DNA from: a virus
Reading direction: 5' to 3' (one strand)
Length of the DNA stretch: 64,000 bases
Virus record (IMG/VR): IMGVR_UViG_3300032893_000016
Coordinates: 1 to 64,000 of that record
This document shows positions 4,098-58,278 of this stretch, one piece after another. The position numbers and the translations under genes were made by a program. The notes under the pieces were generated by a model, which had not been told where the DNA came from, ran no database searches, and saw only the letters and a program-made list of their open reading frames with translations. Numbering within the stretch: position 1 is the stretch's first letter; each line of letters starts with the position of its first letter.

Positions 4098-6685
4098 CCT
4101 GACTTACCTGCTCCCATGAGGGCCGGGTGCATGTTGCGCCGCGCCTTGGCGAAGGCGCTGACCAGCGCTCCCTCATTGTTGCTGAGGACGCGCGCCACCG
4201 ATTGGCCATCCATTGCGTGGATGTGGACATTGTAGGTGTCGCCACCTCCGCCGCCTCCTCCTCCACCATTGTTCGCGATGATGTTCTGCACGCCGCTGGA
4301 AAGGTGCGCGGGGAGGATCATTTCGTCTTCATGGACCATGGCCAACGTATCGTGGGGCACCACCATACCGCCCGCTGCGGAAAGCAGCGAGGTCATCGCA
4401 GAAACCGTGCCGTAGGCGGACGCCGCAGCGGCGGGCGCAAGCTCCGGCCCGACAATTGGAATGGCGGCCGTTGATGCGAAGGCATTTGCCGCCGCAATTG
4501 CCGCCGCGGTCATGATCTGCGTGACCCCAGCCGCGGTTTCAGAGGTCTTGGTGACGATCAGCTTGGCAATCTGCTGTTTGATCCAATCGTCAACGATCTC
4601 CACGCCCATGTTGATGAAGGCATCGGTGATACTGGAAATCACGTTGATCATGGCTTGACGCCACGTCATGGTACCATTCAACATTCCACTCAAGGCGTTA
4701 CCAAAGCTGCGGGAGATCGCAGTGCCCAACTGCTGCCAGCGGTGAACCTCAAACTCAACCAACTGATCGTTTAGTTTGTCGATCCGCGCATTGGACTGCT
4801 GGGTGACCTGCTCCTTCTGTTGCTCCAGCTTTTTGTACTGCTCGCTTTCCTTATCCAGCCCAGCTTGGGCTGCGGTCAAGCGGTCAATGATCTGTTTACG
4901 AATAAAATTCGTAAACGCGGTCTCAAGCTGGGTCTTCTGCTCGATCGTGATCAGGTGCATCTGATAGTCACGATCGTAGGCGCGCAAACCTTCCTGGAGC
5001 TCGCGTTCTAGGTTGGTAACTTCGCGCTGGGTGTCACGCTCCGCATCCGCTTGGCGCTTCTGGTAATACTTATCCCACAGCGCCTGCTTCTGCGTCATGT
5101 ATTCCGCATCTAAGGAGCGGAGCTGTCCGGTGTACTCAGCCTGCTTATCCTTATCGCCGGCGTAAAGGGCTTGCAGCTTGACAAGAGCGGAGCGCTTGGC
5201 TTCGTACGCCTCTTGCGCGGTATCCAGCTCCTTCTGCAGGTGCGCGTTCAGACTTTCCGCGCCCATTGCGTAGGCGGTATTGTCGACCTCCTGCTCCAGC
5301 TTGATGCGGGCTTGCGCGACTTTCTCTTCCGCCTTGATCGCCTCTTCAGCCGCCTTCTGGCCTTCGTTCAGCGGATGAACGCCGGGCGCGTTCTGAAGCT
5401 TGAAATCCGGCAACGCGGCCGAGGGACTTTTGGGAGTAATGAAGCCGGGCAGATCTTCAGGGGTCTTGCCGAGATGGGCAAGTTCGCGCTGGGTGTCCAA
5501 CCAGATGTTCTTGATATTGGTGGCATGATCGCGCGCCGCTTGCTCCCAGCGCTCCATCATAGTTTCCCAGTCTTTGGTCGCCTGACCAAAGTGGCCGGTG
5601 GCTACATCGCCTAGGATATCCGCAACGCCAAGGAACGCGCCGCCCGCTTCCTTACCAAAGGTGATGGCCCACTCAAGAATGGTACGCAGGTCACCGATCA
5701 GCGAGATAATGATCGCGTCGGTGTAGTATAGAATGAACTGAAGTTCTTTCCACGTCTCTTTTACGGATGGGAGCTTTGCATCTTGAACGCCCAGCTCATC
5801 TCCAAGCTTCTTGAAGTCACCCAGCAAACGTTCGACAGCGTCAGAGGTCTGGTCGAACTCGGTCTGGATATCAAGCCACAGATCGTGAAGACCAAAGCCC
5901 TGTTCGTAAACTTTCTTGGACCATTCGTACAGGTCCTGAAATTTGTCGACGACGCCGAGGATGACAGGTGCCAGATCAAGGAACGCCTGAATAGTGACGC
6001 CGTGAATTTCCTGCCCGAGCTTGTACAAAGCTTCGTGGATAGAAGCCAAGGCCGTCGTGGCCTGATCGTCAAGGGCAACGCCGGCACTATCCGCCGCGTC
6101 GCTCAACTCTTTCAGACCCGCCGCACCCTTATCCAGGATCGGGATCATCTGCGCGCCAGCGCGGCCAAACATATCCATAGCCAATGCGGTCTTGTTAGGA
6201 CCATCGGCCATCATTTGGAATTTGTTGGCGATCTGCGGCAACAATTCGTTCAGGGGTAGGATCGCGCCCGTGATCGCATCTTTGTACGTAATATGCAGAG
6301 CAGCCATCGCCTGCTGAGCAGGAGAACCGGCTTTGCTCGTCTCCGAAAGGCTGCGACTCAAACGCTCCAACGCCAGCGCTGCGCTCTCGCCCGAAATGCC
6401 AACACTACCAGCAATGTACTGGAACTCGCCCACCTCCTTGGTGGTCATGCCCAGTATGGCGGCCATCTTCTCGGTCTCTAGACCGAGTTCGGCCATCTTC
6501 TCAGTGAACTCGACAATCTGTTCGACGGCGAACGCAGCGACGAAAGCTTCACCGACTTCCCCTAGCGTGCTTCTGACGGCACGCAGGGGGTCGGTCAAAC
6601 CTTCAATGGCGAACCGGACTTGGTTAAGGGCCGAGATCGCCTCTTCGTTCGCAACGCCAAATTGGACCTTGACGTCGTCACTCAT
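4094..6685 (-). CDS. Tape measure protein
   Basis: 863 residues. The N-terminal part is helical and contains a region like phage-tail tape-measure domains (residues about 60-220, with LGMTTKEVGEFQYIAG and AMDMFGRAGAQMIPIL). The middle is charged coiled coil (EEKVAQARIKLEQEVDNTAY, QKEQVTQQSNARIDKLNDQL), followed by an Ala-rich hydrophobic stretch near residues 725-790 and a run of nine glycines before DTYNVHIHAMDGQSVARVL. It sets tail length and is probably injected or forms the DNA channel; at about 1.5 angstrom per residue this length fits a tail of roughly 130 nm (inference). It sits between the chaperone frameshift pair and the distal tail protein, the standard position. Confidence 0.92.
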   Translation of the reverse strand: MSDDVKVQFGVANEEAISALNQVRFAIEGLTDPLRAVRSTLGEVGEAFVAAFAVEQIVEFTEKMAELGLETEKMAAILGMTTKEVGEFQYIAGSVGISGESAALALERLSRSLSETSKAGSPAQQAMAALHITYKDAITGAILPLNELLPQIANKFQMMADGPNKTALAMDMFGRAGAQMIPILDKGAAGLKELSDAADSAGVALDDQATTALASIHEALYKLGQEIHGVTIQAFLDLAPVILGVVDKFQDLYEWSKKVYEQGFGLHDLWLDIQTEFDQTSDAVERLLGDFKKLGDELGVQDAKLPSVKETWKELQFILYYTDAIIISLIGDLRTILEWAITFGKEAGGAFLGVADILGDVATGHFGQATKDWETMMERWEQAARDHATNIKNIWLDTQRELAHLGKTPEDLPGFITPKSPSAALPDFKLQNAPGVHPLNEGQKAAEEAIKAEEKVAQARIKLEQEVDNTAYAMGAESLNAHLQKELDTAQEAYEAKRSALVKLQALYAGDKDKQAEYTGQLRSLDAEYMTQKQALWDKYYQKRQADAERDTQREVTNLERELQEGLRAYDRDYQMHLITIEQKTQLETAFTNFIRKQIIDRLTAAQAGLDKESEQYKKLEQQKEQVTQQSNARIDKLNDQLVEFEVHRWQQLGTAISRSFGNALSGMLNGTMTWRQAMINVISSITDAFINMGVEIVDDWIKQQIAKLIVTKTSETAAGVTQIMTAAAIAAANAFASTAAIPIVGPELAPAAAASAYGTVSAMTSLLSAAGGMVVPHDTLAMVHEDEMILPAHLSSGVQNIIANNGGGGGGGGGDTYNVHIHAMDGQSVARVLSNNEGALVSAFAKARRNMHPALMGAGKSG

Positions 6686-6686
6686 C

Positions 6687-7034
6687 TCAGTTCATTCTGC
6701 TGTTAGCGGTGATAACCCCGCCATTGAATAGGCTGGCAAGGCTTCGGAGTTCTTCCGCCCGCGCTGCGCTGGTCGAAACGTTCGTCGCGCCCGGCTTGGC
6801 AAAAGGCTTGGTAGGCAGCTTCTTTGGACGAGGCTTGAACTTCATTCCGTGGGCTGCCGCGACGAAGGCCGATGTGACCATCGCAGGCGGCACATGCTCC
6901 CACTTTTCCATGAAGGCCATGAGCATCGGCATGGTCAGGGTTTCTTCCAACACATGCGGGGGCACACCAGTGTAGCTACAGACTGAGGCGATGATTACGT
7001 CCCAGTCTGGCGGTTCGCTTCCCCCTCGGTGCCA
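6687..7034 (-). CDS. Tail assembly chaperone, -1 frame extension (gpT-like part)
   Basis: Open frame that ends just before the tape measure. Taken from the first available start codon (GTG at 6965) it would be 92 residues, but the coding-like sequence begins further upstream: reading -1 from the chaperone frame gives GSEPPDWDVIIASVCSYTG directly before VPPHVLEETLTMPMLMAF and FMEKWEHVPP, a continuous domain typical of gpT-like extensions. The frame is closed by a TAG just upstream of 7034, so a shift must occur between about 7034 and the frame-0 stop at 6995-6997. A run of five G on the coding strand at 7021-7025 lies inside that interval. The likely product is a fusion with the 6995-7408 protein. 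Confidence 0.72.
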   Translation of the reverse strand, partial: WHRGGSEPPDWDVIIASVCSYTGVPPHVLEETLTMPMLMAFMEKWEHVPPAMVTSAFVAAAHGMKFKPRPKKLPTKPFAKPGATNVSTSAARAEELRSLASLFNGGVITANSRMN

Positions 7035-7408
7035 CTATTGGCTTCCTCCCCCGGCTTGGTCGGACCGCGGCTGGCCAAAGCCACCACCGGGATCATCTTC
7101 ATCATCTCCATCATCGGGAGATCGACATCATCGAAATCATCCCGCGTCAGGGTAGGATGCGCACGCTTCAAGCCCCAGTAGACAATATCGTACAGATCAT
7201 CCATCTGCGCCTCAGTAACGTCAAGGCTTCCGCTCTTGAGTTTCTCAGGCGACATGCCCGCAACCACTTTCATGGAACGCATAAGTGCGGGGATGACATG
7301 ACGATTTTGCTTCGGTGCGAGCAAGGGGATGGGCCACTTCTTGCCCGCCCACTCGATCGTTGGCGTCTTCCCGTCAAGGAAGTCCGCATTGGGTTCTGGA
7401 ATTGCCAT
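6995..7408 (-). CDS. Tail assembly chaperone (gpG-like)
   Basis: 137 residues, ATG at 7408 with GAGGTG upstream. Begins MAIPEPNADFLDGKTPTIEW and is mostly helical and acidic in its second half. It lies between the tail tube gene and the tape measure gene, where the gpG/gpGT pair is found. Its last codons overlap the -1 frame that encodes the gpT-like extension, so both a short form ending GEANRQTGT and a long fusion form are expected. These proteins coat the tape measure before tube polymerisation. Function is inferred mainly from position and the frameshift arrangement. Confidence 0.78.
   Translation of the reverse strand: MAIPEPNADFLDGKTPTIEWAGKKWPIPLLAPKQNRHVIPALMRSMKVVAGMSPEKLKSGSLDVTEAQMDDLYDIVYWGLKRAHPTLTRDDFDDVDLPMMEMMKMIPVVALASRGPTKPGEEANSGTEGEANRQTGT
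7019..7025 (-). other. Candidate -1 ribosomal slippery site
   Basis: On the coding strand the sequence reads G GGG GAA in the frame of the chaperone gene. A P-site Gly-tRNA can re-pair on GGG after slipping by one. It is not a perfect X XXY YYZ heptamer, so efficiency is uncertain. It is the best slip site in the short window bounded by the -1 frame TAG and the frame-0 TAA. Confidence 0.5.
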
Positions 7409-7454
7409 AGTTCACCTCTTGGTTGAAAGAAAAACCCCTTCACACGACTACGTA

Positions 7455-8213
7455 CTATTCGGTCGTGGAAATAACGCCAATGTTGCCGTTCTGGTCCGCG
7501 AACGCTTGGAAGTCGAATTCCTGGATCGTGTAATCCGTGTTCTTGAACGGGAACGTCAGCTTGGAAGAACGACAGGCATTCAGCTGGAGATTGAAAGTAT
7601 TCAGCTGGCCTGCATTGTTGGTGTAGCTCTCCGCGATGAAGAGCTGGAACGCCGGGCCCGTGCCCATCGCGCTGTTCGACACCGTCGACTGCACGAGGTT
7701 GGTCACGGTGTAGGCATAGTACAGCGACATGGCGACGTTGTTGTCGCTGGCATTGAACGTATAGACGCCCGTGGCCTCATTCACCGAATACTGGCCAACC
7801 GACGGGGCGCTGGCCACGCGGGTAAGCTGGGAGCCACCAATGGCGTAGAACACGCCATAGTCTGCGACGAACGCCGCCGCATGCGACACGGTGATCGTGT
7901 TGCCGACGCCGGGCGTGCCTTGCTCACCCGTGACGAACTGGGTGCCGGCGTTGCGGGTAAGGGTGGCCGCAGCACCGAACAGCAGGTCACGCATGGTGCT
8001 GCCTTCGATACGCGCGAACTTCGCCTTGCCCGTAATCTTCAGGTTCGCGGGCGCGACGTCGAACGCAATCTTGTTCTGACCGATCAGCTCCTTCAGGGTC
8101 TGATCGAAGTCAATTTCCACATCCTGCAACACGCCGAGGAAGCTCGGGGTGGGGTTGCTGATGTCCGTGCGGCGACCGACAACGGTGCCGGAACCAAAAT
8201 TTACAGCCGTCAT
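7455..8213 (-). CDS. Major tail tube protein (probable)
   Basis: 252 residues. Opens MTAVNFGSGTVVGRRTDIS, then LGVLQDVEIDFDQTLKELIG, which resembles the start of tail-tube proteins where the first strand pairs with a loop of the next ring. The rest is rich in beta-type, Thr/Ser/Asn-containing sequence. It is placed between the tail terminator-like and chaperone genes, the normal order. The overlap with the upstream stop (ATGA) shows translational coupling. About 40 nt separate it from the chaperone gene. Confidence 0.8.
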   Translation of the reverse strand: MTAVNFGSGTVVGRRTDISNPTPSFLGVLQDVEIDFDQTLKELIGQNKIAFDVAPANLKITGKAKFARIEGSTMRDLLFGAAATLTRNAGTQFVTGEQGTPGVGNTITVSHAAAFVADYGVFYAIGGSQLTRVASAPSVGQYSVNEATGVYTFNASDNNVAMSLYYAYTVTNLVQSTVSNSAMGTGPAFQLFIAESYTNNAGQLNTFNLQLNACRSSKLTFPFKNTDYTIQEFDFQAFADQNGNIGVISTTE

Positions 8214-8725
8214 TTGGGTACATACTCCTTCTGGAACAGGGAAAAGGTTGGGACAGTTACTGAGATCGGGATCATGGCGAGACCATCGCCGTCAAGGTCG
8301 CCCGGGTCCTTGATGATCGTGCCAGTGATCCACGCATGTTGGCACATGCCGCCAAGGTTTTGCATGCCTGTGATGGGATTGGGGGAAAGCGTGGCTGTGA
8401 CGATGTCGCACAGCTTATTGAGAAGGGATGCGGGAACGTCGGCGCTCTCCGCGTTGGTGTAGATCAGCAACCGCGGCTTCAGCGTTGTCAAGGACGGGCT
8501 GCCTCCGCTACCGCCGACGACATCCTCATCGGTCTCCTGTTGGAAGATGGCCGGGCGCTCGCTTTTGGGCACATCACCCCACAGCTTCAGCTTGCGGTCC
8601 TTCGTTTTCCACACGGGGCTGGAACTGACCCAATCGAAGAGGGCTTGGTACACGGCATCGCGCCCGGTCAGAAGGCCGGACAGCGGGTCGCCGGACGACA
8701 ACCCCGTGATAGGATTCTCAGGCAT
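8210..8725 (-). CDS. Tail terminator-like protein
   Basis: 171 residues, starting MPENPITGLSSGDPL. The body (GRDAVYQALFDWVSSSP, then LKLWGDVPKSERPAIFQQE and LKPRLLIYTNAESADVP) is the pattern of small proteins that cap the tail tube and join it to the head: helix, then a strand with a W-G-D-V-P turn. It sits between the HK97 gp10-like gene and the tail tube gene. The start overlaps the preceding gene by 8 nt. Assignment is by position plus resemblance. Confidence 0.68.
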   Translation of the reverse strand: MPENPITGLSSGDPLSGLLTGRDAVYQALFDWVSSSPVWKTKDRKLKLWGDVPKSERPAIFQQETDEDVVGGSGGSPSLTTLKPRLLIYTNAESADVPASLLNKLCDIVTATLSPNPITGMQNLGGMCQHAWITGTIIKDPGDLDGDGLAMIPISVTVPTFSLFQKEYVPK

Positions 8726-9209
8726 TTTTGATCCCTTCGACGCCAGCCTCTTTGATGCCTTCTACGATCTCATCCTTCATTTCCTCCAGCGAGGAACGAA
8801 TGTACGATCGTTCGGGAATTTTGGAACCGGGATGATGTACAATTTTGGCGAAGCGCTGCTTTCCACCAGCGACGAAGGCCAGCACCTCTGCCTTGACGGG
8901 CTCGATAATATGCGGGCGGGTGGTGCCACCGAACTCATGGATCGCGGCATAGGGTACGCTTTTCAGCGAGCCCACAGCGATGATCAGGTTATTCTTGCTC
9001 TCCGAAATCCATTTGTGGTCGATGCTGGAGGCCAGTGCACCTGTACGCTTATGCAGCACCTGCCCGGAAAGCTTCTCGGTGACGATCTTCCGTTGCAGCT
9101 TCAACGCCAGCGCAAGGAGCTTGGCCTTCATGGCGCGGTACAGGCTATCCGGCATCCGGCCGATCTTGGCGATCAGCGCCTGATCACCTTGGAGGCTGAT
9201 GGAGAGCAT
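8718..9209 (-). CDS. HK97 gp10-like / minor tail (neck) protein
   Basis: 163 residues. The ATG at 9209 forms a TAATG junction with the upstream stop and gives MLSISLQGDQALIAKIG. The pattern of a helical start, then LHKRTGALASSIDHKWIS and a strand leading to VPYAAIHEFGGTTRPHIIEP, is the recognisable HK97 gp10 family core (the Y-A-x-x-x-E-F-G motif). Members act in head-tail joining or tail completion. The neighbours, connector upstream and tail terminator downstream, agree. Confidence 0.84.
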   Translation of the reverse strand: MLSISLQGDQALIAKIGRMPDSLYRAMKAKLLALALKLQRKIVTEKLSGQVLHKRTGALASSIDHKWISESKNNLIIAVGSLKSVPYAAIHEFGGTTRPHIIEPVKAEVLAFVAGGKQRFAKIVHHPGSKIPERSYIRSSLEEMKDEIVEGIKEAGVEGIKNA

Positions 9210-10063
9210 TAGACCGGCAGTACATTCTTGAAGGGCTGCAAGGTGCTCGTGAACCACTTGGGCAAATCGTTCACGTCGTACGACATGACCTCCTGACCGC
9301 CCAATGACTTGGAGCGACTACCAATGCGGTCGCGGTACTTGAAGCGTTCGCCCACCAGCTCGCAAACCGCGTTCTCAATTGTGTACGGAATGAAGCCGCC
9401 CGTGATGACAACGTTCGCCCCAGCTTGGGCTGCGTTGAATACGTACTTAGATTGCTTGGGCTTGCCGGTCGAGTCGTCGGGGAACAGCGGGGCAGCCGGG
9501 GTATACTGCATAGCGCTGGGGTCGCCCGTGACAGGGGTCAGGGCCGTGCCATCGAGGGTTACGCCGGCGTCCACGGCAAACATGCCAGCCGGGAAATCCG
9601 GGCAAAGCTCATAGGGCGCAGACGTGGGCACCTGCATCGTCACGGAGGCTTGGTAGCCCGCGGTATAGGTAAGGCCGATATTGGCCATCCCACGTGGCAA
9701 GCCATAGCCGCTGACGAAGAGTTGCTGAGCCTTGGCGGGGCAATAGCCATCCCAAGGCTCAAGCGTCCAGCCCGTTCCCATGCCCGGAGGCTGGGTGTTG
9801 GCCGGAATGGACACGCCACTAGCCGTGAAGGACGTGATCTTGGTGACCGGGCGCTGTTTGAGCAGGATGCGGCAAGAGCCGGTCCCACTTAGAATATCAT
9901 TGTAGATCGCAGGCAGGATGGAGGAATACCCTAGCCAACTTAGGGTCACAGCCGACAAGCGGGTGATCTCCTGTTGCAGGATGGGGTTTGCCGCGTCTTT
10001 ATTGTCCTCGATGGCAAGCCATGTGCGGACACGCGACAGGGTCGTCAGGTCTTGCAGGGGCAA
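9209..10063 (-). CDS. Head-tail connector (adaptor) protein
   Basis: About 284 residues with the TTG start at 10063 (PLQDLTTLSRVRTWL), preceded by GGAG at a 6-nt spacing. An alternative GTG at 10123 would add 20 residues (304 in all). The first 60 residues (LTTLSRVRTWLAIEDNKD then LQQEITRLSAVTLSWLGY) match the helical start of gp6/gp15-type adaptors that bind under the portal. The middle is longer than the usual ~100-residue adaptor and carries a beta-rich insertion, and the end returns to helix (YTIENAVCELVGERFKYRD). Probably the ring that joins portal and tail. Confidence 0.72.
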   Translation of the reverse strand: MPLQDLTTLSRVRTWLAIEDNKDAANPILQQEITRLSAVTLSWLGYSSILPAIYNDILSGTGSCRILLKQRPVTKITSFTASGVSIPANTQPPGMGTGWTLEPWDGYCPAKAQQLFVSGYGLPRGMANIGLTYTAGYQASVTMQVPTSAPYELCPDFPAGMFAVDAGVTLDGTALTPVTGDPSAMQYTPAAPLFPDDSTGKPKQSKYVFNAAQAGANVVITGGFIPYTIENAVCELVGERFKYRDRIGSRSKSLGGQEVMSYDVNDLPKWFTSTLQPFKNVLPV

Positions 10064-10175
10064 GGTGGTCTCCGGGCGGAAAAGGGCATGGGGTGACGGA
10101 GAGGTGAATAACCGCCACCCCACTCGCCCTCACGCGATGCGAAGGGGTTCTCACCGCGTGACTATGATCCCTCTC

Positions 10176-10886
10176 TTACGAGAAGGAAACGGTGAACGCA
10201 TAATCGACCAGACCGTTGGCAGCCGGGGCCGTGGTCGGGTTAACGGTGCGCGCCACAGTGTCGACGGTGGCGGTGGAGGCCACATCATCGGCGGACACGT
10301 TGCTGGTGCCGAGGACCTTGGTGGTCTTGGTCACCTTGAGCAACGCGAAGTCCACCACACCCTGCCGGGTCGGGATGCCGAAGTCATTCGACACGCCAAT
10401 ACCGAGGGTGGACGAACCACCGCCCGCAAGGCCAGCCACGGTGCCCGACGTCAGCGACGCAAAGGCATTTGCCGTAGTGACCGTACGGTCGGCCGTGCCG
10501 ATGAGGCTAATGACCTCGGTGATGGCATTGCCATCCTGGTCAAAGCCAACCAGCGTCAGCGTACCCGCGGTAATGTGCGTGCCGCCGTCGACCACACGCA
10601 CCTGCAACTTGCGCGCGTGCACAGGCTGAGCGGCAATGGTGATCGTACCATTCGCCGGCGTCGCCGCCGCCTTGATCGACACCAGGTCAGCGGGGAGCGG
10701 CGAACAGACGAACACCTGCCGCACGCTGGTACCGAAGAAGGTGAAGCCGATGTTCATCAGACCATCGACGTCACCGCTGGCGACGTTGGACACCGAACCG
10801 TCGGAGGCGACCTGATAAACGGTACCCGACTTTCCGGTGATCAACGTGACTTGATTGCCCGCAGGGGCAAGCATTTTGTAACCCAT
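10176..10886 (-). CDS. Virion structural protein, possible head decoration
   Basis: 236 residues starting MGYKMLAPAGNQVTLITG. The first ~60 residues look like a small globular domain (VYQVASDGSVSNVASGDV, then DGLMNIGFTFF), followed by a beta-rich, Thr/Ala/Val-rich part. No catalytic motif is seen. Located between the small head gene and the connector. Many phages encode head decoration or neck proteins here. Function beyond structural is not claimed. It is preceded by a hairpin followed by a T-run that may lower read-through from the capsid operon. Confidence 0.6.
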   Translation of the reverse strand: MGYKMLAPAGNQVTLITGKSGTVYQVASDGSVSNVASGDVDGLMNIGFTFFGTSVRQVFVCSPLPADLVSIKAAATPANGTITIAAQPVHARKLQVRVVDGGTHITAGTLTLVGFDQDGNAITEVISLIGTADRTVTTANAFASLTSGTVAGLAGGGSSTLGIGVSNDFGIPTRQGVVDFALLKVTKTTKVLGTSNVSADDVASTATVDTVARTVNPTTAPAANGLVDYAFTVSFS

Positions 10887-10902
10887 GTTCTTTACTTTCT
10901 CC

Positions 10903-10924
10903 TAAAAAGCCGGAACCGTTCCGG
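10903..10924 (-). terminator. Candidate intrinsic terminator before the 10176-10886 gene
   Basis: On the minus strand a 6-bp perfect stem CCGGAA/TTCCGG with a 3-nt loop is followed by CTTTTTAGG. It lies between the 10943-11314 gene and the 10176-10886 gene. The stem is short, so it may act as a partial terminator that adjusts expression across the head-tail boundary. Confidence 0.5.
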
Positions 10925-10942
10925 GGTTGGTTGAACCAGACC

Positions 10943-11314
10943 TTACGAGGCGGTTTCCGCCGCCTTGATAATGTCCAGCGTGGATGTGGAATGCGCGAGC
11001 ACGATCTCCCGGAGTTTGGCGTCGGGCAGACGACCTTCCGGAAGCTGAATCTTGTTGTCCTCGCAGTAGCCCATCAGCTGACCGCGGCCCATCTTGGCGA
11101 TATTGTCGGCGGCCAATTTGTCAGCGGTCTTGCGGACGTCCTGCAACATGCCAGCCAAGGCTTCAGTTGAGGCTGCCTTGTCGCCATAGCCAAAACTTTC
11201 GGCCAAGGGTGCAAGGTGATCGGGGACGACCAAATGACCATCCTCGACTTTGTATTCAACATTTTCGTGATAGAAAGCGGTGCAGCCTTTCGGTGCACGG
11301 AGCTTCTTGGCCAT
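10943..11314 (-). CDS. Small head-region protein, unknown
   Basis: 123 residues from ATG at 11314 with GAAGGG upstream (MAKKLRAPKGCTAFYHENVE). The N-terminal half looks like a short beta domain (VEYKVEDGHLVVPDHLAPL), the C-terminal half is helical (MGRGQLMGYCEDNKIQLP and KLREIVLAHS). This layout is common in small proteins found directly after major capsid genes. No function is assigned. Upstream lies a stable hairpin that separates it from the capsid gene. Confidence 0.55.
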   Translation of the reverse strand: MAKKLRAPKGCTAFYHENVEYKVEDGHLVVPDHLAPLAESFGYGDKAASTEALAGMLQDVRKTADKLAADNIAKMGRGQLMGYCEDNKIQLPEGRLPDAKLREIVLAHSTSTLDIIKAAETAS

Positions 11315-11353
11315 TGTTTTTCCCTTCAGTGTTTGGAGCGGTGGATGGAAATA

Positions 11354-11385
11354 CAAAGGGGCTGAGAATTACCCCAGCCCCTTTG
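11354..11385 (-). terminator. 11-bp perfect hairpin after the capsid gene
   Basis: CAAAGGGGCTG pairs perfectly with CAGCCCCTTTG around a 10-nt loop. Read on the minus strand it follows the major capsid stop and is followed by TATTTCC, only weakly U-rich. It could be a partial terminator or a 3' stabiliser that raises capsid mRNA over downstream genes. Confidence 0.55.
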
Positions 11386-11421
11386 GTCTCTAATAGGCTA
11401 TGTCGATTACGCCGGCGTCAA

Positions 11422-12948
11422 TTAAGACGAGGGCGCAATGTTACTGATGACGCCGAAGGCCGGGGGGAAATAATTCTGCAACAGGCCATCGGCCCACACA
11501 GAATACTCATACGCCGGACGGGTCTGCGGCCACTCGATCTGGAAGTAGTCGCGACGCATCTTCATCTGCATCAGGTTGCGGACGTTGCTCATCGGGTAGG
11601 GCAGATCGTTCGACCAGAAGATGATCATGCCGGGCGGCACGTTGGGGTGCAGCAGCACCTGGACAAGCTGGCCACCGGACATGGTGTACTTGTTCAGGTA
11701 ATTGCCGACCACGGTGCCAGCGGTGAGGCTGATGCCAGCCGCGCTGTCCTTGCCCTGCATGTCACCATAGAAGCGGAACAACGGCGCACCGCCGCCCGCA
11801 ATGCTGATCTTGGTGATCGTGCGCAGCTCCTGGGAGTTGACCAGCATGACCTGGGGGCCAAGACGGTAATTATCCCAAAACTGCTTGAGCGCGGCGTCAA
11901 TCTCCACAATGCCGCCCGCACCATCGGTCGTGAGGGTCGTACCGGTGCCGGGGGTGCCGGTCGCCAGCGCATTGTAGTAGCTGTTGCTGCCGCTGGTGCA
12001 AATCTGCGTGATCACACCATCGAACTGCAACTGGTTGCGGCTGTTGTCCGCAGCCGGAAGCGACGCGGCCGTCTGCGTGCCGGTGGCATTGGCGGTAATG
12101 TTGACGCTGTTGATCGAAGTGATCGCACCCAGCGTCTCGGCACCTGCCAAGCCCCAAAACCACGCATAACCCGAGGCGCCCTTGACTGCCGTGGTCGACG
12201 CCTGACACGAGCCATTCGGGCCGGTGATCGAAGCGGTGGCCGCAGCGGACTTCTGACCGGAGCCGCCGCCATACTGAGCGACGGAACCATCGGTGTTCGT
12301 GCGGGTCACCAGACCGCGGATGATATTCGCAGCGGTCGGAGCCGGCGTCACGCCGCCAGCGTAATTGAAGCCGTCGAAGGACAGCGCAACCACGATGACA
12401 GAAAGCGTGATGGAACCCAGCGTGCCACCGGAGCTCGACGCATTGAGGGTCGGGGTCGCGGCCGTGCCCAGCGCAAGGCTGGAGTTGGAGCCGACGATCA
12501 TCTTCTCCTCGCCGATCATCGTCGCCTTCAGCAGGTTGTCCACCGCAAGCGCCTTGGCATCGTCAAGGTTCTTGGCAGCGAGGTCAGCCTGGAAGGTGAC
12601 GCTGTCATCCAGACCGAACGACGCATAGGTCGCGACGTTGTTCTGGACCTGCGTCGTCACCGTGCCGCCGCGCTGACCCTCACCGAGGCCCAGGTCGACG
12701 TTGGTGATGTTGACGCCGGTGATCGAAATCCAATGCGTGGCCGTGCCACCATCGGCAGGCACGCGCGGGATGCGATTGCGGAGCGGCGTCAGAACCGGGA
12801 ACAGGAGCTTCGCATAGGGCTCCAGGTCATACCACACAAGGCCGGTGGCCTGCGTGATCGCCTTCTGGAGCTCCGGGGGAAGCCCGTTGCCGGGGGACTT
12901 ACGGACCTGTTCCCAAATTTGGGCAAAGGTCTCTTTGGTGGGATTCAT
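11422..12948 (-). CDS. Major capsid protein
   Basis: 508 residues. The gene follows the protease-scaffold gene and precedes small head genes, the HK97-type order. The start MNPTKETFAQIWEQVRK fits a helical N-terminus. The middle (about residues 150-330) is an extended Ala/Gly/Thr/Ser-rich part that looks like an inserted domain. The C-terminal part holds the capsid-like features LKQFWDNYRLGPQVMLVN and MKMRRDYFQIEWPQ. It is longer than typical HK97-fold capsid proteins (about 300-400), in line with an insertion. No N-terminal delta domain is seen, consistent with the scaffold being fused to the protease instead. Confidence 0.85.
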   Translation of the reverse strand: MNPTKETFAQIWEQVRKSPGNGLPPELQKAITQATGLVWYDLEPYAKLLFPVLTPLRNRIPRVPADGGTATHWISITGVNITNVDLGLGEGQRGGTVTTQVQNNVATYASFGLDDSVTFQADLAAKNLDDAKALAVDNLLKATMIGEEKMIVGSNSSLALGTAATPTLNASSSGGTLGSITLSVIVVALSFDGFNYAGGVTPAPTAANIIRGLVTRTNTDGSVAQYGGGSGQKSAAATASITGPNGSCQASTTAVKGASGYAWFWGLAGAETLGAITSINSVNITANATGTQTAASLPAADNSRNQLQFDGVITQICTSGSNSYYNALATGTPGTGTTLTTDGAGGIVEIDAALKQFWDNYRLGPQVMLVNSQELRTITKISIAGGGAPLFRFYGDMQGKDSAAGISLTAGTVVGNYLNKYTMSGGQLVQVLLHPNVPPGMIIFWSNDLPYPMSNVRNLMQMKMRRDYFQIEWPQTRPAYEYSVWADGLLQNYFPPAFGVISNIAPSS

Positions 12949-50935: not shown

Positions 50936-51435
50936 GGGCTGGCCATCAGGGCTTCAAAGTCGTAGATCAGGATGGCCGCGCTACGCCGGCGATAGATCAC
51001 ACCCAACGGAGTAGCCTTAAAATCAACACCTCTTACATCCATCGTGGCGACGATCGTGGGCATCTGGTTCTGATGCGCGATCAGCAGCGGCACTTTATTC
51101 GCGCGCAAAGCATCGTAGCAGGTCTGCTCCCAAAAAGTAATAAACTCGCCTTTGCCCTTGACCATCGCGCTATCCAGCGCAAGATTCCTGACGCACTTGC
51201 ACTCAACGGAGAAAATGTCGATCAGCTTGTGGCCAATGGGATCGGTAGCCGTGATGTCACCGCCCTGCGTCTTGTTCTTCTTGCCGCTCTTGTGCATCAC
51301 CGTCGCGCGCCCACCTGACATAGCGCTGCGCCAGAACAGATCCTCGCGCAACCCACCAGACAGCCATTGGCTGAGCCGCTTGCAGATCAGGCGCTCGAAC
51401 CCCGCGCCTTTTGCTTTGCCGCCACCCTTCTTCAT
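50920..51435 (-). CDS. PD-(D/E)XK nuclease, resolvase-like
   Basis: 171 residues (MKKGGGKAKGAGFERLICKR). GDITATDPIGHKLIDIFSVE and ECKCVRNLALD hold the D...E-x-K core (GD then ECK) of PD-(D/E)XK nucleases, with helical flanks. Could be a Holliday-junction resolvase or an end nuclease. Located between the Mre11-like and UvsX-like genes, so recombination is the most likely setting. Confidence 0.72.
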   Translation of the reverse strand: MKKGGGKAKGAGFERLICKRLSQWLSGGLREDLFWRSAMSGGRATVMHKSGKKNKTQGGDITATDPIGHKLIDIFSVECKCVRNLALDSAMVKGKGEFITFWEQTCYDALRANKVPLLIAHQNQMPTIVATMDVRGVDFKATPLGVIYRRRSAAILIYDFEALMASPCPLL

Positions 51436-51644
51436 TGAGGCATCCTACTTGCACGCCACGTATCCACCCAACCAGAATACTGTTGGCCGCTAACCCACCA
51501 TACACAATCCAACGAGCAAACGTTATCGCGCTTGAAAAGAATACCCTGCACACGGACCTTGCAGGTCTCATCGCCATCAACTATTACGAAGTCACCCACG
51601 CTGGCGAGGCCCCCATCACCAAGGACCGCAACGACGTCATTCAC
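51432..51644 (-). CDS. Small beta-rich protein, GTG start
   Basis: 70 residues from GTG 51644, overlapping the UvsX stop (GTGA). MNDVVAVLGDGGLASVGDF, VIVDGDETCKVRVQGILF. A compact beta barrel is likely. Function unknown; the operon position suggests DNA metabolism. Confidence 0.5.
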   Translation of the reverse strand: MNDVVAVLGDGGLASVGDFVIVDGDETCKVRVQGILFKRDNVCSLDCVWWVSGQQYSGWVDTWRASRMPQ

Positions 51645-52687
51645 GACGGCCGGCTCCTCTTATTGCGCGTGGGCAGGACGGCCTTATCCATTTCCCTCCA
51701 GCGCCTCTCTACAAGCGCTCCGACGCGATCCACTTCCTCCCAATACTTTCCATCGGGCAGATCATTCAGATCGTCAAGCATGTCCAGTATCTTGGTCATG
51801 CGATCCTTCGCACCCTTGGGCCAAGCCCCACCCACGTCCTCGATGGCATCAATCTCATTGAGGAACATAAGACTGGCGCGGAGATCATCCGTACCGAACC
51901 CGAACAGGATATCGAAATGGGCCTCACGCAAGGGAAGGCCAATCTTGTTCTTCTTGACCTTGGCCTTGATCTCCACACCGACAGGCAGCTTCTGACCGCG
52001 GGTCGTTTTGGTGATTGCGCCCATATGATGCAGCCACACGACCTGGGACGCGTAGAAGTTCAGAGCACGGCCGCCGCTGCGGCTGGACTTCTCTCCGAAC
52101 ATTGCGCCAATCTTGTCGCGCAACTGGCTGATGATCATAAGGTGGACGTTAGAGGCCTCCACGTCGCGCACCAGCTTGCGGAAGAGCTCCGACATTTTCT
52201 TGGCCTTCTGCGCGCCATAGCTGCCATCGGTGATCTCCCGCTTGACCTCAGCCTCATCGGAGAGCGCGTCAAGGGAATCCAGCACATAGAAGCCGGGCTT
52301 TTTATACTGTCTGCATTGCTTGCAGACGTCATTCAGATCATCGTGGAAGTCTTCCACGGTGTGAAGCTGCGGCTCCAGAAACTTAACGCGCGACATGGGC
52401 ATGCCCAGCGCCGAAGCGTACGGCTTGTCAAAGGCGCTCTCGGCCTCCCGGAAATAGATGTCGCCCTTCTTAAATTTGCGGGCAAAGTTGCAGCTTGCCT
52501 CGATGGCCAGAAGGGTCTTGCCGGTGGAGTTGTCACCCACCACATTGCTGATGCGCCCCATCGGCCATCCACCCCCGAGCGCAAGGTCCAGTACCCTGCA
52601 CCCGGAGGTGATGAACTCTAAATTGGGCTTTGGGTTGGAAAAGTACGCCCCGCCCTCGTCCTCATTCTCAAGCTGGACCCGCGCCAT
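51641..52687 (-). CDS. RecA/UvsX-like recombinase
   Basis: 348 residues (MARVQLENEDEGGAYFSNP). Walker A is VVGDNSTGKTLLAIEAS, Walker B region GFYVLDSLDALSDE, and the L2-like loop region LRDKIGAMFGEKSSRSGGRA. Lacks the extended RecA C-terminal domain, as in T4 UvsX. Promotes strand exchange with SSB and UvsY-like partner. Neighbours (SSB upstream, small beta protein downstream) fit. Confidence 0.9.
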   Translation of the reverse strand: MARVQLENEDEGGAYFSNPKPNLEFITSGCRVLDLALGGGWPMGRISNVVGDNSTGKTLLAIEASCNFARKFKKGDIYFREAESAFDKPYASALGMPMSRVKFLEPQLHTVEDFHDDLNDVCKQCRQYKKPGFYVLDSLDALSDEAEVKREITDGSYGAQKAKKMSELFRKLVRDVEASNVHLMIISQLRDKIGAMFGEKSSRSGGRALNFYASQVVWLHHMGAITKTTRGQKLPVGVEIKAKVKKNKIGLPLREAHFDILFGFGTDDLRASLMFLNEIDAIEDVGGAWPKGAKDRMTKILDMLDDLNDLPDGKYWEEVDRVGALVERRWREMDKAVLPTRNKRSRPS

Positions 52688-52690
52688 GCG

Positions 52691-54076
52691 CTACCGACGG
52701 CTGCCCCTGCCGCCCCTTTCACTGTCGCGCCCGCTATCACGAGAGCCCCTGCCACCGCGCTCGCCGGCGTCGGCCTCAAGGCGCACCCGCCCACCGCGCG
52801 GGGACTCTTCCTCGGCGGTATCGCGACCCCGGCCCCGGCTTTCGCCGCGCCCGCCACGGTCGCCGCGCCCACGACCAGCATCGGCAACAGCCTCCCGGGC
52901 GGTCTCTTCGACCTCATCCGGAGGGTCCGCTTCCGCAGACCGCGCACCCCCACCACGCCGCCCCTCCGGCTCCGCAGACCGGGCACTCGAACGTCCTTCC
53001 CCCCGTTCGCCGCGCCCCCGGCTGCCCTCCTCCGACTCTTCCCGGCCACCCCGGCTTGAACCCCGGTCGGAGCCGCGTTCTCCGCGCCCGCCACGGGCTT
53101 CTTCACGCCCGCCGCCCCTGCCGCCGCGCTCCTCGCGCCCGCCGTCATCGCGCCCGCCACGGCCCCTGCCGCGCTCTTCCTCCTCCGGCTCATCATCCGG
53201 AGGATCATCCCGACGGCTGCCCCGGCTGCTCCGAGTATCGTCCCGGGTGCGCTCAGGCTCAGAACCCCGGCCCCGGCCCCGGCCACGATCGTCGCCGCGC
53301 CCACCGCGGCCCCGGTCATCATCCCTGCCGCGCCCACGGCCACCCTTGTCCTCGTCTTCCTTATTGGACCGGGCCACCGTGCCAGCGAGCACCTTCTCAA
53401 GGTACTCATTGGTCTGATAATTGAGGATGGATGGCAAGGGATGCTCGGCGATGTAATCGAGCCACTTGATCTGCTCATCCTCGTCCTTGGAAATGTACGA
53501 GGGATCGCGGGCCACATCCATGCCGGGGTAGCGGGTGTTCAGGCCGGTGCCCTCCCGCTTGAAGAACAGATCGTAGCCGTCATCCGGATGATCCAGCACG
53601 ATCACGGAATTGTCCTGCTGAGACTGGCAGCGCGTGGCAATGTCCTTGTCGGTGGACCACGACATGTTCCAGACCTGCGGCCCGGCTTCTTCGTTCTTGC
53701 GGTCGATCATCCAGACCAGCACGCGCTTATTGGCCTTGATCTGATTGAACAGCTCATCATCGCCATCCGCCTTGAGGCGCGCGGCCTCTTCACAGATCGG
53801 GCAATCCTCGTTGAGCATCTTCTTGGGGCAAAGGTACTGCCCATTGTCCGCGCCCACATTGCCGTGGACCCAAACGGTGATGCTCCAATGATCACCCCAC
53901 GTTTCCGTGTCCTCCCACGTCGGGGGCAAGATGCGGACTTGCTGCTTCCCCTCCGGGATGCGCCAGACGGGGAAGTCCTGTTTAATGATCCCGTCGAAAT
54001 TGCCGCCCTGTTGATTGGCGTGTGCGCTAACCGCTGCGGCATTATCGCGCTCGCGATAGCCGGACCACTTACCCAT
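52691..54076 (-). CDS. gp32-like ssDNA-binding protein with a long RGG tail
   Basis: 461 residues. The core (residues 1-235) is gp32-like: QQVRILPPTWEDTETWGDH, zinc residues H71, C83, C92 and C95 (LCPKKMLNEDCPICEEA) spaced as in T4 gp32. The remaining ~225 residues are a low-complexity tail with about 35 Arg-Gly dipeptides mixed with Asp/Glu blocks (GRGRDDDRGRGGRGDDRG; ERGRGRGGRDDGGREE), ending in basic RGSRR instead of the acidic tip usual for SSB. The gene also overlaps the upstream stop of a small membrane gene. Tail function unknown; condensate formation or partner docking are options. Confidence 0.88.
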   Translation of the reverse strand: MGKWSGYRERDNAAAVSAHANQQGGNFDGIIKQDFPVWRIPEGKQQVRILPPTWEDTETWGDHWSITVWVHGNVGADNGQYLCPKKMLNEDCPICEEAARLKADGDDELFNQIKANKRVLVWMIDRKNEEAGPQVWNMSWSTDKDIATRCQSQQDNSVIVLDHPDDGYDLFFKREGTGLNTRYPGMDVARDPSYISKDEDEQIKWLDYIAEHPLPSILNYQTNEYLEKVLAGTVARSNKEDEDKGGRGRGRDDDRGRGGRGDDRGRGRGRGSEPERTRDDTRSSRGSRRDDPPDDEPEEEERGRGRGGRDDGGREERGGRGGGREEARGGRGERGSDRGSSRGGREESEEGSRGRGERGEGRSSARSAEPEGRRGGGARSAEADPPDEVEETAREAVADAGRGRGDRGGRGESRGRGRDTAEEESPRGGRVRLEADAGERGGRGSRDSGRDSERGGRGSRR

Positions 54077-54233
54077 GTTCTTTCCCTTCTCTCGATAGGC
54101 GACCTAAACTCTTCAAATAATCCATACGCGACCGGTAATAGGCGAAGCTTCCCGCCCGCACTACCAGGTACGCAATGAACGGACTGCACAGCGCTAACGC
54201 CAGCGCGGCGATCAACCAGAACTCAGCGGTCAC
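54069..54233 (-). CDS. Small single-span membrane protein
   Basis: 54 residues from GTG 54233 (AAGGAA upstream): TAEFWLIAALALALCSPF and IAYLVVRAGSFAYY, a long hydrophobic helix or hairpin, with a basic end. Overlaps the UvsY-like gene end and nearly abuts the SSB start. Unknown, but its location in the replication operon is notable (membrane anchor?). Confidence 0.5.
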   Translation of the reverse strand: MTAEFWLIAALALALCSPFIAYLVVRAGSFAYYRSRMDYLKSLGRLSREGKEHG

Positions 54234-54759
54234 GAGACTGATTCCTTCTGTTGAACGCCGGATCGTTTTTGTGGGCATTGGCGACTGCTTGGCGCACCGC
54301 GCCATCTGTCGTCCAGTACCCGGACGCATAAAGCTGGACCAAATCCTTAATGGCGTAGCCGCGCTGATCGAACGCGCGTTCCAAAGCCTGCCACAGGTCG
54401 GCCTCAAGGCAGGCGTCACCATACTTGGCCGCCAGCTTCTTGATGGACGGCATTAGCATGATCTTGTTCTTGACGCCCGTCTCTGTCATCTTGCCGTCAT
54501 CTTCGCGCCACCCAGCGCGCACCGAAGCATCCAGCTCGGCTTCCAGCTGTTCCTTTTCCAGCTTCAGCTTGTCACGCCGGCTCTTGGCGAACATGTACTC
54601 TTTGCTGACTTGATGGTACAGATCAGGATGCTCCGTCAGGTCATCATCCAATTCGTACTTTTGGATGCGAAGCTTCGTCTCCAGATCGTCCATGAGCTCC
54701 GGGGTCTTGTACCCATCGGGCACAGGAACATCGTTCAGGGTCACTCTTTCTCTTGCCAT
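54223..54759 (-). CDS. UvsY-like recombination mediator (candidate)
   Basis: 178 residues (MARERVTLNDVPVPDGYKT). Charged coiled-coil first half (KSRRDKLKLEKEQLEAEL), then ADLWQALERAFDQRGYAIKDL, which resembles the C-terminal segment of T4 UvsY (a tryptophan, then a helix and R-G-F-A-I-K). It lies between the clamp loader and SSB genes, near the UvsX-like gene. The assignment rests on this similarity and position; overall sequence conservation is low. Confidence 0.55.
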   Translation of the reverse strand: MARERVTLNDVPVPDGYKTPELMDDLETKLRIQKYELDDDLTEHPDLYHQVSKEYMFAKSRRDKLKLEKEQLEAELDASVRAGWREDDGKMTETGVKNKIMLMPSIKKLAAKYGDACLEADLWQALERAFDQRGYAIKDLVQLYASGYWTTDGAVRQAVANAHKNDPAFNRRNQSRDR

Positions 54760-54778
54760 GCTATGACATACCCCACGC

Positions 54779-55699
54779 CTATCCGATCACGTTGGCACAG
54801 GCAAGGATAACCTGCCCAATACCATCACCCTTGTACATGACCTTGCCAAAGGCTTCGAGAACAGCAAGCGAGCGCGCGGCTTTTTTGGTGGTGTCGGCAC
54901 CCAGCGCGACTTTCGTATGATAGCCGATCACAACCCGGCGTATACTTTCCGGGTCGAGGTCCTTCATCTTTTCAACCAGTGCCATGATCTGCTTGTAATT
55001 GGAACTCTGCAACAGCAGCCGGGCCAGCTCAAAAGCCTCCGGCGCATTGGTCGCGGACTGCAGGAGCTCGGCTGCTTCTTCAACAGACCCAGCTTCCATG
55101 CAAATGTTCAGGTTCGACAGGGCCTGCCGGGGGCTGCCATTTGCCTCGTCGGCGCACAGCCCAATGATCTCCCCGCCGACCTTGTCGGTCAGGATATTTT
55201 CTTTGTCAGCAATGGTGCACAGGAAATTGTACAGCTCATCGCCCGTCAGGTCGCGCAAAGCGTACGAGGCAAAGCGGGTCTTGATGCTGGCCTTCAGCTT
55301 CGTCGGCGCTGTCGTACAGAAGAACCAATAAATCCACGGGGGCGGCTCTTCGAGCGATTTCAGCAAGGAATCCAGCGCTTGGCCGGACAAGCCTTGGCAC
55401 TCATCAATAATGATGGCGCGCGAACCGGACAGCCTATAGTTCAGCGTGGAAGTGATCTTCCGCATTTCGTCGATACCGGTGTTCGACGCTGCGTCAATCT
55501 CAAGGATGCCTTCATCGGGAACCCCGAACGCGCGGGCAGTAATGCGGGCCAAGGTCGTCTTGCCTGTGCCGGCGTTGCCTGTGAACATGAACCCTTGGGC
55601 GGACTTCTTGGCCACGACGGCCTTGAGAGATTTGACCGCGGCGTCCTGCCCTACCACCTCATCAAAGGTCTTCGGACGATATTTCGTAATCAAGCTCAT
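54779..55699 (-). CDS. Clamp loader AAA+ subunit (gp44/DnaX-like)
   Basis: 306 residues (MSLITKYRPKTFDEVVGQD). Walker A GNAGTGKTTLARITAR, Walker B-like AIIIDECQGLSGQAL, sensor region FFCTTAPTKLKASIKTRF. YRPKTFDEVVGQ at the start is the hallmark of clamp-loader large subunits. Loads the sliding clamp encoded at 58722-59849. A small subunit (gp62-like) is not seen, so this may work as a homo-oligomer or with a host subunit. Confidence 0.9.
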   Translation of the reverse strand: MSLITKYRPKTFDEVVGQDAAVKSLKAVVAKKSAQGFMFTGNAGTGKTTLARITARAFGVPDEGILEIDAASNTGIDEMRKITSTLNYRLSGSRAIIIDECQGLSGQALDSLLKSLEEPPPWIYWFFCTTAPTKLKASIKTRFASYALRDLTGDELYNFLCTIADKENILTDKVGGEIIGLCADEANGSPRQALSNLNICMEAGSVEEAAELLQSATNAPEAFELARLLLQSSNYKQIMALVEKMKDLDPESIRRVVIGYHTKVALGADTTKKAARSLAVLEAFGKVMYKGDGIGQVILACANVIG

Positions 55700-58278
55700 G
55701 CGGCCAGCTTCCCCTTCCAGGTGTCGGACGCGTACTCGCCCGCCTTCTTAAGGTCATACCAACTCGGGCCTGCGGACATTTCCACCGTCAAAGGTACATT
55801 GACCCAATCGTAATCCGTGTACAGCATCTCGGTAACCACATCCTGCGCCCATTCATCCGCGCCCTTCTTCTTGCGGAAGAATGTCAAATCGTCATGGATG
55901 AACATATTGCACTGGTAATCAAGGCCGCGCTTGGACAGCCGCGTCGCCGCGCCCATGACGATGAAGGTCTCGCAAGCCTGAATGGGGCTGTTGATGACCT
56001 CGTTCATGGACATAGGCGCATGGCGGATCGTGCCATCCAGACTGATGACGTATCCATTCTGCTTGTAGAACTTAATGGCGCGCTCCTGCCATTCCTTCAC
56101 GCCTTCAAAGGTGTACCAGAACTCGTCATACAGCGGGCTGATGACCTTTTCGGGGATGTCAAGATTGTTGGCCACACTTTGCATGGCCGAGCCAAAGAAC
56201 AGCGGGAACGTCCAGCCATTCTTTACCACATCGCGGAACTTGCGGATCGGATCGTCTTCCAGGTGGAACTCGTCCATACGCCGCGGATATGCCTTGGCCA
56301 GCTTCTCGGTCCACTCCAAATGAATGTCATACCGATCCCAAAGCGCCTTGATGAACGAGCGATCCTGACTGGCCATCGCGATGATGCGCGCCTGAATCTG
56401 GCCGTAGTCGAACGCATAACAGTATTCATCCGAGCCGGGTCGTATCTGCTTGCGGACTTCCTTACCCTCAGCGTCGCGCTTGGGAAAGTTCTGCTCATTG
56501 GGGCCATCGGATGATGTGCGCCCCGTCTTGGTGAAGACCGTGTTCAAGGATGGATGCAGCAGCCCATCCTTCCAATAGTATGCGCCGCCCGGCCCCAGCT
56601 CCCGGATATAGGTCGACAGCATCTTCTCGACGCCGCGAAGGTGGACAATCTTGTCAAGGCCGGGCAGGTCAATTTCGTTCAGCACGTCTTCATCGGTGGA
56701 GTATTTTTCGTTGCCACCGCTATCGGTCTTCCAGCCCTCCTTACATTTGTAGACGTCCTTCAGGAGCTTTTCGACATCGTGGTTATTGGTGGGCTTGAAC
56801 GGCCGCCCGATTACTCTCTTAAACTCTCGCGCAATTTCAGACTTGGCGATCTCGTCGTGCAGATCGCGTGCAATGTCTTCATATTTATGAAGCAGGTCTT
56901 CGTTCTCGTCCGGATCAATAGGCACGCCTTTGAGCTGCGTGAGGACGGCTGTTGGAACGCGAGACATCCGCTCGTTGAAATGCTCTTCACGTTTTGCATC
57001 CCGTATAAGATCAAACTGTCGAACGCCAAGAAAGTAATGGTACCGAGTATCGAGCCCATTATAATGTAGAGTATCTTCCAAAGGCTCATTGAGCATGTCC
57101 TCCTTGTCCAGCGGGCTTAGAACTTTAAGGTCAAAGCCGAAGTGTTGGCGCACGAGGAAGTTCAGGGACAGCGGCCCCTGCCTACCCTTCTCGCCGACAC
57201 GCTCATCGAGCACAGCGGCCTGCACCATCGTGCAAATCCATTCGCCGGCTCGCAGGATGCTGTGCCCGAACAGGTAGCCAACCCACTCCATTTCAAAGGC
57301 CGCATTGTGGACCATCTTGATGACCTTGGAGCACAAGAACGTCTCGAAGGCATCTCGTATCTTCTCAAACTGCGCTTTCGTCCAGTTCGCCCGCGGATGC
57401 TCATAAGGGAAGGCCAGCACCTTCTCGCCCGTGCCAACCGCAATCGTCAGAAGGCGGCCATCATTGTACGGCCGGACAGTTTCGGTTTCAAAGTCCATGC
57501 CGACTGCCCATTGCTCGGCAGCCCATTCAAGGTGTGCGACGATCGTATCAACGTCCTCGTCCGTGCCACCCAGCACAATATCGACATTGATGTCGCGCTG
57601 GTCCACTTCGTGGTAGTACTGATTGACGTCGGCCCACTCGATCTTGTCCAGCTCTTTGAAGACGCGCCTTATGTCGAAGTCGAACGCGCGCTCATCCTCA
57701 TTGTAGATGCCAGCCGCATCGTTCTGCCAATCCTTGCGCTTCTTAAGGAGCTCGGCCGGGCTGACCACCGGGTATAACCAGCACACATGGCCAGCAATGT
57801 TAACCACCGCCCGCCTGCCGCGCCAATCATAGATACGATCGTCGCCTACGGCCCATTTGAGCGCCGCCTGCCCCACGGCAAGAATGGCCTTGGGCTTGGC
57901 AGCGGCAATGTCGCGCTCCACGCTTGGCCTGCAACACTCGACCTCGTACTTGGCGTCGGTCAGCTTGTTACCGGGCGGGTGCGTGCGCACCACATTGTTG
58001 AAGCGGATGTCGCTTTTCCAGTCTTTGGGGATACGCCGGCGTAACAGCAGCCCCGCCTCCCCGGAGAAGTGGTCGTCCTGTTTATCATCGGTCTTGGACG
58101 GGAACTCACCCAGCACATAAAGGAGGGGCTCGGACGCCCCGCTTGGGGCCATGTGGGGGTGGGCGTTCTTAACCTTATCTAAAGGACAAGCTCTACATTC
58201 CAAGCGACGTAGCAATTCCGCGGAAGGTTCTCCCTTCTTGCCCTTGCCCTTGCCCGTGCCTGAGGCTAGGAAACCCAT
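55696..58278 (-). CDS. DNA polymerase A with N-terminal uracil-DNA glycosylase-like domain
   Basis: 860 residues. Residues ~20-190 look like a family 4/5 UDG: LECRACPLDK (Cys28, Cys31), LLYVLGEFPSKTDD, FSGEAGLLL, NVVRTHPPGNKLTDAK, then CCRPSVERD and GHVC (possible Fe-S ligands). Then a 3'-5' exonuclease (VGMDFETETVRPY, HNAAFEMEWVGY, HYNGLDTRYHYFL) and a family A polymerase (motif A FDYGQIQARIIAMAS, motif B region RDVVKNGWTFPLFFGSAM, motif C FIHDDLTFF, with HDD where HDE is usual). Replicative enzyme of this phage by context. Overlaps the clamp loader stop by 4 nt. Confidence 0.92.
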   Translation of the reverse strand: MGFLASGTGKGKGKKGEPSAELLRRLECRACPLDKVKNAHPHMAPSGASEPLLYVLGEFPSKTDDKQDDHFSGEAGLLLRRRIPKDWKSDIRFNNVVRTHPPGNKLTDAKYEVECCRPSVERDIAAAKPKAILAVGQAALKWAVGDDRIYDWRGRRAVVNIAGHVCWLYPVVSPAELLKKRKDWQNDAAGIYNEDERAFDFDIRRVFKELDKIEWADVNQYYHEVDQRDINVDIVLGGTDEDVDTIVAHLEWAAEQWAVGMDFETETVRPYNDGRLLTIAVGTGEKVLAFPYEHPRANWTKAQFEKIRDAFETFLCSKVIKMVHNAAFEMEWVGYLFGHSILRAGEWICTMVQAAVLDERVGEKGRQGPLSLNFLVRQHFGFDLKVLSPLDKEDMLNEPLEDTLHYNGLDTRYHYFLGVRQFDLIRDAKREEHFNERMSRVPTAVLTQLKGVPIDPDENEDLLHKYEDIARDLHDEIAKSEIAREFKRVIGRPFKPTNNHDVEKLLKDVYKCKEGWKTDSGGNEKYSTDEDVLNEIDLPGLDKIVHLRGVEKMLSTYIRELGPGGAYYWKDGLLHPSLNTVFTKTGRTSSDGPNEQNFPKRDAEGKEVRKQIRPGSDEYCYAFDYGQIQARIIAMASQDRSFIKALWDRYDIHLEWTEKLAKAYPRRMDEFHLEDDPIRKFRDVVKNGWTFPLFFGSAMQSVANNLDIPEKVISPLYDEFWYTFEGVKEWQERAIKFYKQNGYVISLDGTIRHAPMSMNEVINSPIQACETFIVMGAATRLSKRGLDYQCNMFIHDDLTFFRKKKGADEWAQDVVTEMLYTDYDWVNVPLTVEMSAGPSWYDLKKAGEYASDTWKGKLAA

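Follow-up and report, generated by a model that had tools for sequence, protein, structure and literature searches.

Flank-dependent retention of restriction-type palindromes in a phage genome with DpdA-family and preQ0 genes

Why should one eight-base palindrome, ACGATCGT, recur throughout the genome of a phage? The stretch analyzed here (the window) runs from base 1 to base 64000 of a virus record that totals 98,146 bases, a phage whose record ends repeat each other (129/130 bases identical). Copies of ACGATCGT, listed without strand, lie at 4970..4977, 8804..8811, 14432..14439, 17225..17232, 20265..20272, 20514..20521, 23664..23671, 24381..24388, 29862..29869, 31312..31319, 34613..34620, 35435..35442, 36240..36247, 37446..37453, 42303..42310, 43778..43785, 45385..45392, 47101..47108, 51050..51057, 53285..53292, 57539..57546 and 57835..57842. 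This recovers the 22 exact copies between 4970 and 57842 that a preliminary description had reported, at the same coordinates and with the same total. It had estimated about one copy by composition; Markov models of order 1, 2 and 3 give 0.84, 1.2 and 2.0 copies expected in the window. Its counts of near-misses (TCGATCGT 3, GCGATCGT 3, CCGATCGT 1) are confirmed. Order-3 simulation of the window (n=300) gave a mean of 1.95 copies and a maximum of 7, and the complete record holds 31 copies against 3.3 under the order-3 model, far above expectation. When the 96 eight-base palindromes containing four G/C were ranked by count, the runner-up had 8 copies and the median was 0.5. The total of the inner hexamer CGATCG equals expectation, both in the window (36 vs 34) and in the genome (51 vs 52), indicating that selection acts on the full octamer or its flanks and not on CGATCG, in line with the earlier proposal that the complete 8-mer is favored.

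Selection is visible at the level of codons. Within-gene synonymous codon shuffling gave 5.6 +/- 2.0 coding copies of ACGATCGT (maximum 11 in 300 shuffles) against 26 observed, an excess that is thus not a product of codon usage; coding counts are approximate, as genes were called by a simple script. By the same approximate counts, coding CGATCG with A on both flanks stood at 26 vs 5.3 expected, 4.9-fold over neutral, and in all remaining contexts fell to 17 vs 38. The peptide T-I-V, itself abundant (13 vs 4.9), was spelled ACG-ATC-GT in 12/13 instances (2.9 expected), and [YNDH]-D-R was spelled xAC-GAT-CGT in 12/19 (0.9 expected). This biased spelling shows that the octamer is selected as DNA, as had been argued from copies falling in several codon phases; two phases account for most copies and the third is rare. 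The enrichment was absent in the terL relatives L007 to L035. We also considered, and rejected, a half-site (ACG-N-CGT) common to all copies and spaced variably, which yielded the two known spacings, a mild excess at 13 and nothing more.

The octamer is one case of a broader flank rule, overlooked in the preliminary description. CGATCG, CCGCGG, CGGCCG and CCCGGG are kept almost only where the last G of the palindrome precedes T (less often A). With G/C on both flanks, CGGCCG (0 vs 26), CCGCGG (0 vs 25) and CCCGGG (0 vs 11) are missing from coding DNA. GCCGGC follows a related bracket: 63/66 copies in the record have AC, GT, GA or TC on both sides, and among coding copies 46 have such flanks on both sides (5.7 expected), 2 on a single side (23 expected) and 0 on neither (44 expected), placing the locked form 8-fold over neutral. 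The corresponding octamer, ACGCCGGC/GCCGGCGT, has 71 matches vs 9 expected and is a stronger motif than ACGATCGT. No other hexamer of this phage shows the bracket rule of GCCGGC or the A..T flank rule of CGATCG. The window holds 43 evenly spaced bracketed GCCGGC sites within 98..62580 (listed without strand), with their first G at 98, 1498, 3597, 5156, 6080, 7944, 9563, 10654, 11411, 12341, 13798, 14750, 17646, 18350, 19473, 20570, 21952, 23813, 25568, 26705, 28065, 30495, 35689, 36794, 38258, 38774, 39838, 41190, 42174, 42424, 43223, 43877, 46215, 47191, 49218, 50985, 52763, 54576, 55568, 57244, 58035, 60805 and 62575.

Further palindromes are depleted without any flank rescue, including GGCGCC (4 vs 55) and GGATCC (2 vs 22-23). 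ATCGAT, though it contains GA, is still depleted (5 vs 27), and GGATCC likewise contains GA; both speak against the protective role proposed below for modification. Over the whole record the ratio of observed to expected is 0.23 for GANTC and 0.26 for CCWGG; avoidance of GANTC may reflect an alphaproteobacterial host. Dinucleotide tests on whole palindromes found GT-containing ones not avoided (P 0.017), a weak result that we set aside. Deamination of a flanking G to A was ruled out as the cause because C and T flanks vanish too.

The genes of this phage offer a candidate for what sets the flanks apart. A DpdA-like transglycosylase is encoded at 60760..61608 on the minus strand (phrog_887 queuine tRNA-ribosyltransferase, E 8.5e-44) and a QueC-like preQ0 synthase at 62053..62937, also on the minus strand (PF06508, phrog_1550), while a QueD-like gene (record 64758-65309) and a QueE-like gene (record 79593-80438) lie outside the window. 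The phage therefore carries a DpdA-family transglycosylase and the preQ0 genes QueC, QueD and QueE of a DpdA/7-deazaguanine system; no FolE was identified in it. We propose the DpdA-like protein as a candidate modifier of G in phage DNA. A tblastn search of 180 phage records gave as its best match in the phage collection the homologue in Edwardsiella phage ZHS (38.8% identical), and in the DpdA tree its protein joins L334/L335 (90/93) on a branch that is long. Elsewhere in the window, the product of 19303-20091 matches only an RNA polymerase alpha-CTD domain (PF03118), at its C terminus, and 46984-50935 encodes SbcC-like and SbcD-like palindrome-specific nuclease subunits.

The flank preference recurs in phages with related modules. 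A cross-phage statistic, which screened C....G palindromes only, gave an A-flank z of 11.3 for this phage and 8.7 for ZHS, relative to a mean of -0.1 and a maximum of 2.0 in 56 control phage loci; other palindromes within this phage gave z=-0.2. The replication region of ZHS is syntenic and encodes DpdA, FolE and QueC together with a homologue of QueE. Across ZHS and its relatives, CCGCGG had an A flank in 33/34, 25/26, 25/25, 43/44 and 40/42 cases and CTCGAG in 20/20, 27/27, 17/17 and 15/15. In the relatives, which are viral contigs, other palindromes of the same phage are unlocked, and the locked set differs between phages. A search at E 1e-4 detected no DpdA/Que homologues in a DNA-polymerase relative (G004, 41% identity), and there the sites are simply lost (CCGCGG 2 vs 30). 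As a separate observation, nearly all TGGCCA copies retained in ZHS and its relatives G413, G414 and G417 have a C flank (22/22, 23/24, 23/24 and 29/32), perhaps a second protected context in the ZHS group.

A different flank is found where a different context is known. GA and GGC are the contexts reported, in work cited in PMC8306585, for modification by the DpdA of phage CAjan. Among CAjan-type phages, those C....G sites that are depleted favor a T flank, that is, G then A, with T-flank z of 6.7 in MiCath, 5.7 in Iggy, 5.1 in R31B, 3.8 in JG012, 3.3 in Vid5, 2.2 in CAjan and 1.9 in Kpn2P2; CAjan-type Bhz54 shows no T-flank preference at these sites. A lock on A instead of T matches the published GA context, so these phages serve as a positive control in which reading the flanks agrees with a context known independently. 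The correspondence is incomplete: BcepGomr groups with CAjan in the DpdA tree yet has an A-type lock (z 6.0), the stretches of L334/L335 tested have no lock, and in G416 to G418, with related DpdA, the lock is weak or absent. A missing nuclease could account for a missing lock in DpdA phages, an explanation that is ad hoc.

We consider it probable that restriction palindromes of this phage are hidden by a DpdA-dependent modification that falls on G in GT, and that ACGATCGT represents CGATCG with both strands hidden. The phage would make preQ0 via QueC, QueD and QueE, and DpdA would swap guanine for a 7-deazaguanine in the GT context and, more weakly, in GA. A palindrome whose terminal G stands before T would then carry the modified base and be uncuttable, and copies in the remaining contexts would be cut by host nucleases and purged. 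CGATCG and GCCGGC seem to require a protected flank on both sides, which would turn the former into ACGATCGT and the latter into GCCGGC bracketed on each side by AC, GT, GA or TC; for CCGCGG, CGGCCG and CCCGGG one protected flank would suffice. Protected words would additionally be favored beyond neutral expectation. The footprint in the genome sequence alone (flank counts, z=11.3) fits protection of restriction sites in a modified context. Of the three roles first suggested for the octamer, a target of base modification, a segregation or packaging mark and a protein-binding site, the first is the best supported, because the flank rule recurs with related DpdA/Que genes and is missing in the relative without a detected module. 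Even so, ACGATCGT is probably not a stand-alone modification target but a restriction-type hexamer hidden by its own flanks.

The mark might instead be a different one, for example methylation of A in AC by an unrecognized methyltransferase with the deazaguanine genes as bystanders, which we judge unlikely. GT and its complement AC look alike at the sequence level, and the mark may therefore sit on A, C or T; a small SAM-methyltransferase-like gene lies at 63376-63972. Nevertheless, among the proteins scanned, which cover a subset of the genes, no DNA methyltransferase family was found bar a weak match inside a prohead-protease protein, and the lock recurs with DpdA/Que modules and switches base in CAjan-type phages in accordance with the published GA context.

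It is improbable that ACGATCGT and locked GCCGGC are binding sites of a phage protein acting in replication, priming, segregation or packaging. Positive selection reaching codons and peptides would suit such sites, as would the spacing of GCCGGC, which is more even than that of any other k-mer among the 2911 tested in this phage (CV 0.53; gaps <500 bases 2 vs 18), the extreme case in its own genome within spacing tests that carry a multiple-testing burden. For ACGATCGT no clear regularity of spacing emerges (P about 0.07 to 0.16), leaving a segregation or packaging mark unsupported for the octamer. One flank rule on four or five palindromes is ill-suited to a single binding protein, and the AC/GT/GA/TC flank set lacks single-base intermediates, unlike a binding-site profile. 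The existence of an evenly spaced octamer, TRRCCACA, in CAjan-type phages also speaks for binding sites. This non-palindromic word has 34 to 70 copies per phage (CAjan, L278-L280; MiCath, L286-L288; Vid5, BcepGomr and Iggy, L289-L297), which alternate in orientation and on each strand mostly lie at even intervals (about 2 kb, CV about 0.4), and TAACCACA occurs 47 times in CAjan vs 2.6 expected. In Rhizobium phage RHEph04 (L275-L277), CCACAG is the most evenly spaced k-mer, with CV 0.34 and 0.39 per strand.

We find it quite improbable that a host process resembling the cyanobacterial HIP1 system, such as methylation-linked repair or a mutation bias, makes ACGATCGT and that the phage mirrors its host. 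CGATCG is over-represented only within the octamer, as in HIP1 (PMC4390886), and an excess over neutral resembles drive. But dense pairs of ACGATCGT occurred in 0/385 alphaproteobacterial genomes, a set that may not include the host; several palindromes obey one flank rule, and the locked set varies by phage. In addition, every other flank base is replaced by A, for which no simple chemistry accounts. Genome contigs with three close copies of ACGATCGT were mainly scattered, repeat-like matches from many phyla, and a HIP-like host origin was rejected on that search as well.

Codon usage, dinucleotide bias or chance can be dismissed: CGATCG is plentiful in phages of such base composition, but this explanation is rejected by Markov models (orders 1 to 5), by simulation, by the shuffling of synonymous codons and by the comparison phages.

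The record also contains a gene for an RNA-guided protein of the TIGR-Tas kind (NCBIfam NF052498, E 5e-60) with an array after it, outside the window at record 82430-85640 (G000:C1:82430-85640; L005:18430-20000 and L006:1-1640). The array has about 61 degenerate 36-nt units with edge GCTTCAATC and loop GGTACGCTC, whereas 5 to 15 units are the usual size of TIGR arrays in the literature (PMC12045711). The array had no self-targets in this phage that we could find. TIGR guide RNAs were rejected as the cause of the palindrome pattern, as the 61-unit array targets its own phage no more than shuffled spacer pairs do.

DpdA-dependent hiding does not account for everything. Relative to neutral, A-flanked CCGCGG is 1.7- to 2.4-fold in excess in this phage, ZHS and two relatives; in MiCath the protected words are not in excess. 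Two ZHS relatives carry CCGCGG at even intervals (G415 P<0.001, G414 P 0.004), as does ZHS more weakly, and GCCGGC and CTCGAG are not evenly spaced in phages without a lock on them. Hiding alone predicts neither excess nor even spacing, which therefore implies positive selection for carrying uncuttable sites. We tentatively suggest, as a possibility we hold to be less probable than the hiding itself, that DpdA phages actively accumulate their hosts' restriction palindromes in modified form, spaced out and with a positive role; ACGATCGT and locked GCCGGC would then be such accumulated protected sites. That role could be the trapping or poisoning of two-site restriction enzymes, or that of a genome-wide mark. 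We know of no earlier description of a benefit from carrying uncuttable sites.

If DpdA-dependent hiding is correct, a phage genome by itself suffices to reveal the sequence context in which a hidden modification occurs, through the flank that exempts a palindrome from avoidance, and the CAjan-type phages, with their published GA context, give the expected flank. Prediction of modification motifs could then extend to thousands of phages that have not been cultured, and the motifs could be set against the restriction enzymes that their hosts encode.

Context-specific DpdA/7-deazaguanine modification is reported in PMC6884629 to shield phage DNA from restriction. As in the CAjan system, DpdA and preQ0 synthesis genes occur together in this phage. 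It differs from CAjan in its putative GT context, the published CAjan context being GA and GGC according to PMC8306585, in having iterated protected palindromes above neutral and in a DpdA related only distantly. With HIP1 (GCGATCGC, 0 copies in the window) it shares an iterated octamer around CGATCG, coding copies in several phases and no over-representation of CGATCG outside the octamer (51 vs 52, against 31 vs 3.3 for ACGATCGT). The likeness to HIP1 drawn in the preliminary description is thus a formal one, and the dense host iteration that it would suggest is missing from the 385 alphaproteobacterial genomes, which may not include the host. In contrast to HIP1, the flanks are A/T here and G/C there, the carrier is a phage, several palindromes share one flank rule, and no orphan CGATCG or GATC methyltransferase was found among the phage proteins scanned (a subset of genes). 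Finally, the near absence of unprotected palindromes resembles the avoidance of restriction sites known in phages. Plain avoidance differs in that this phage retains its sites and has multiplied them where one flank context is present, while the relative G004, with no DpdA detected, loses them.
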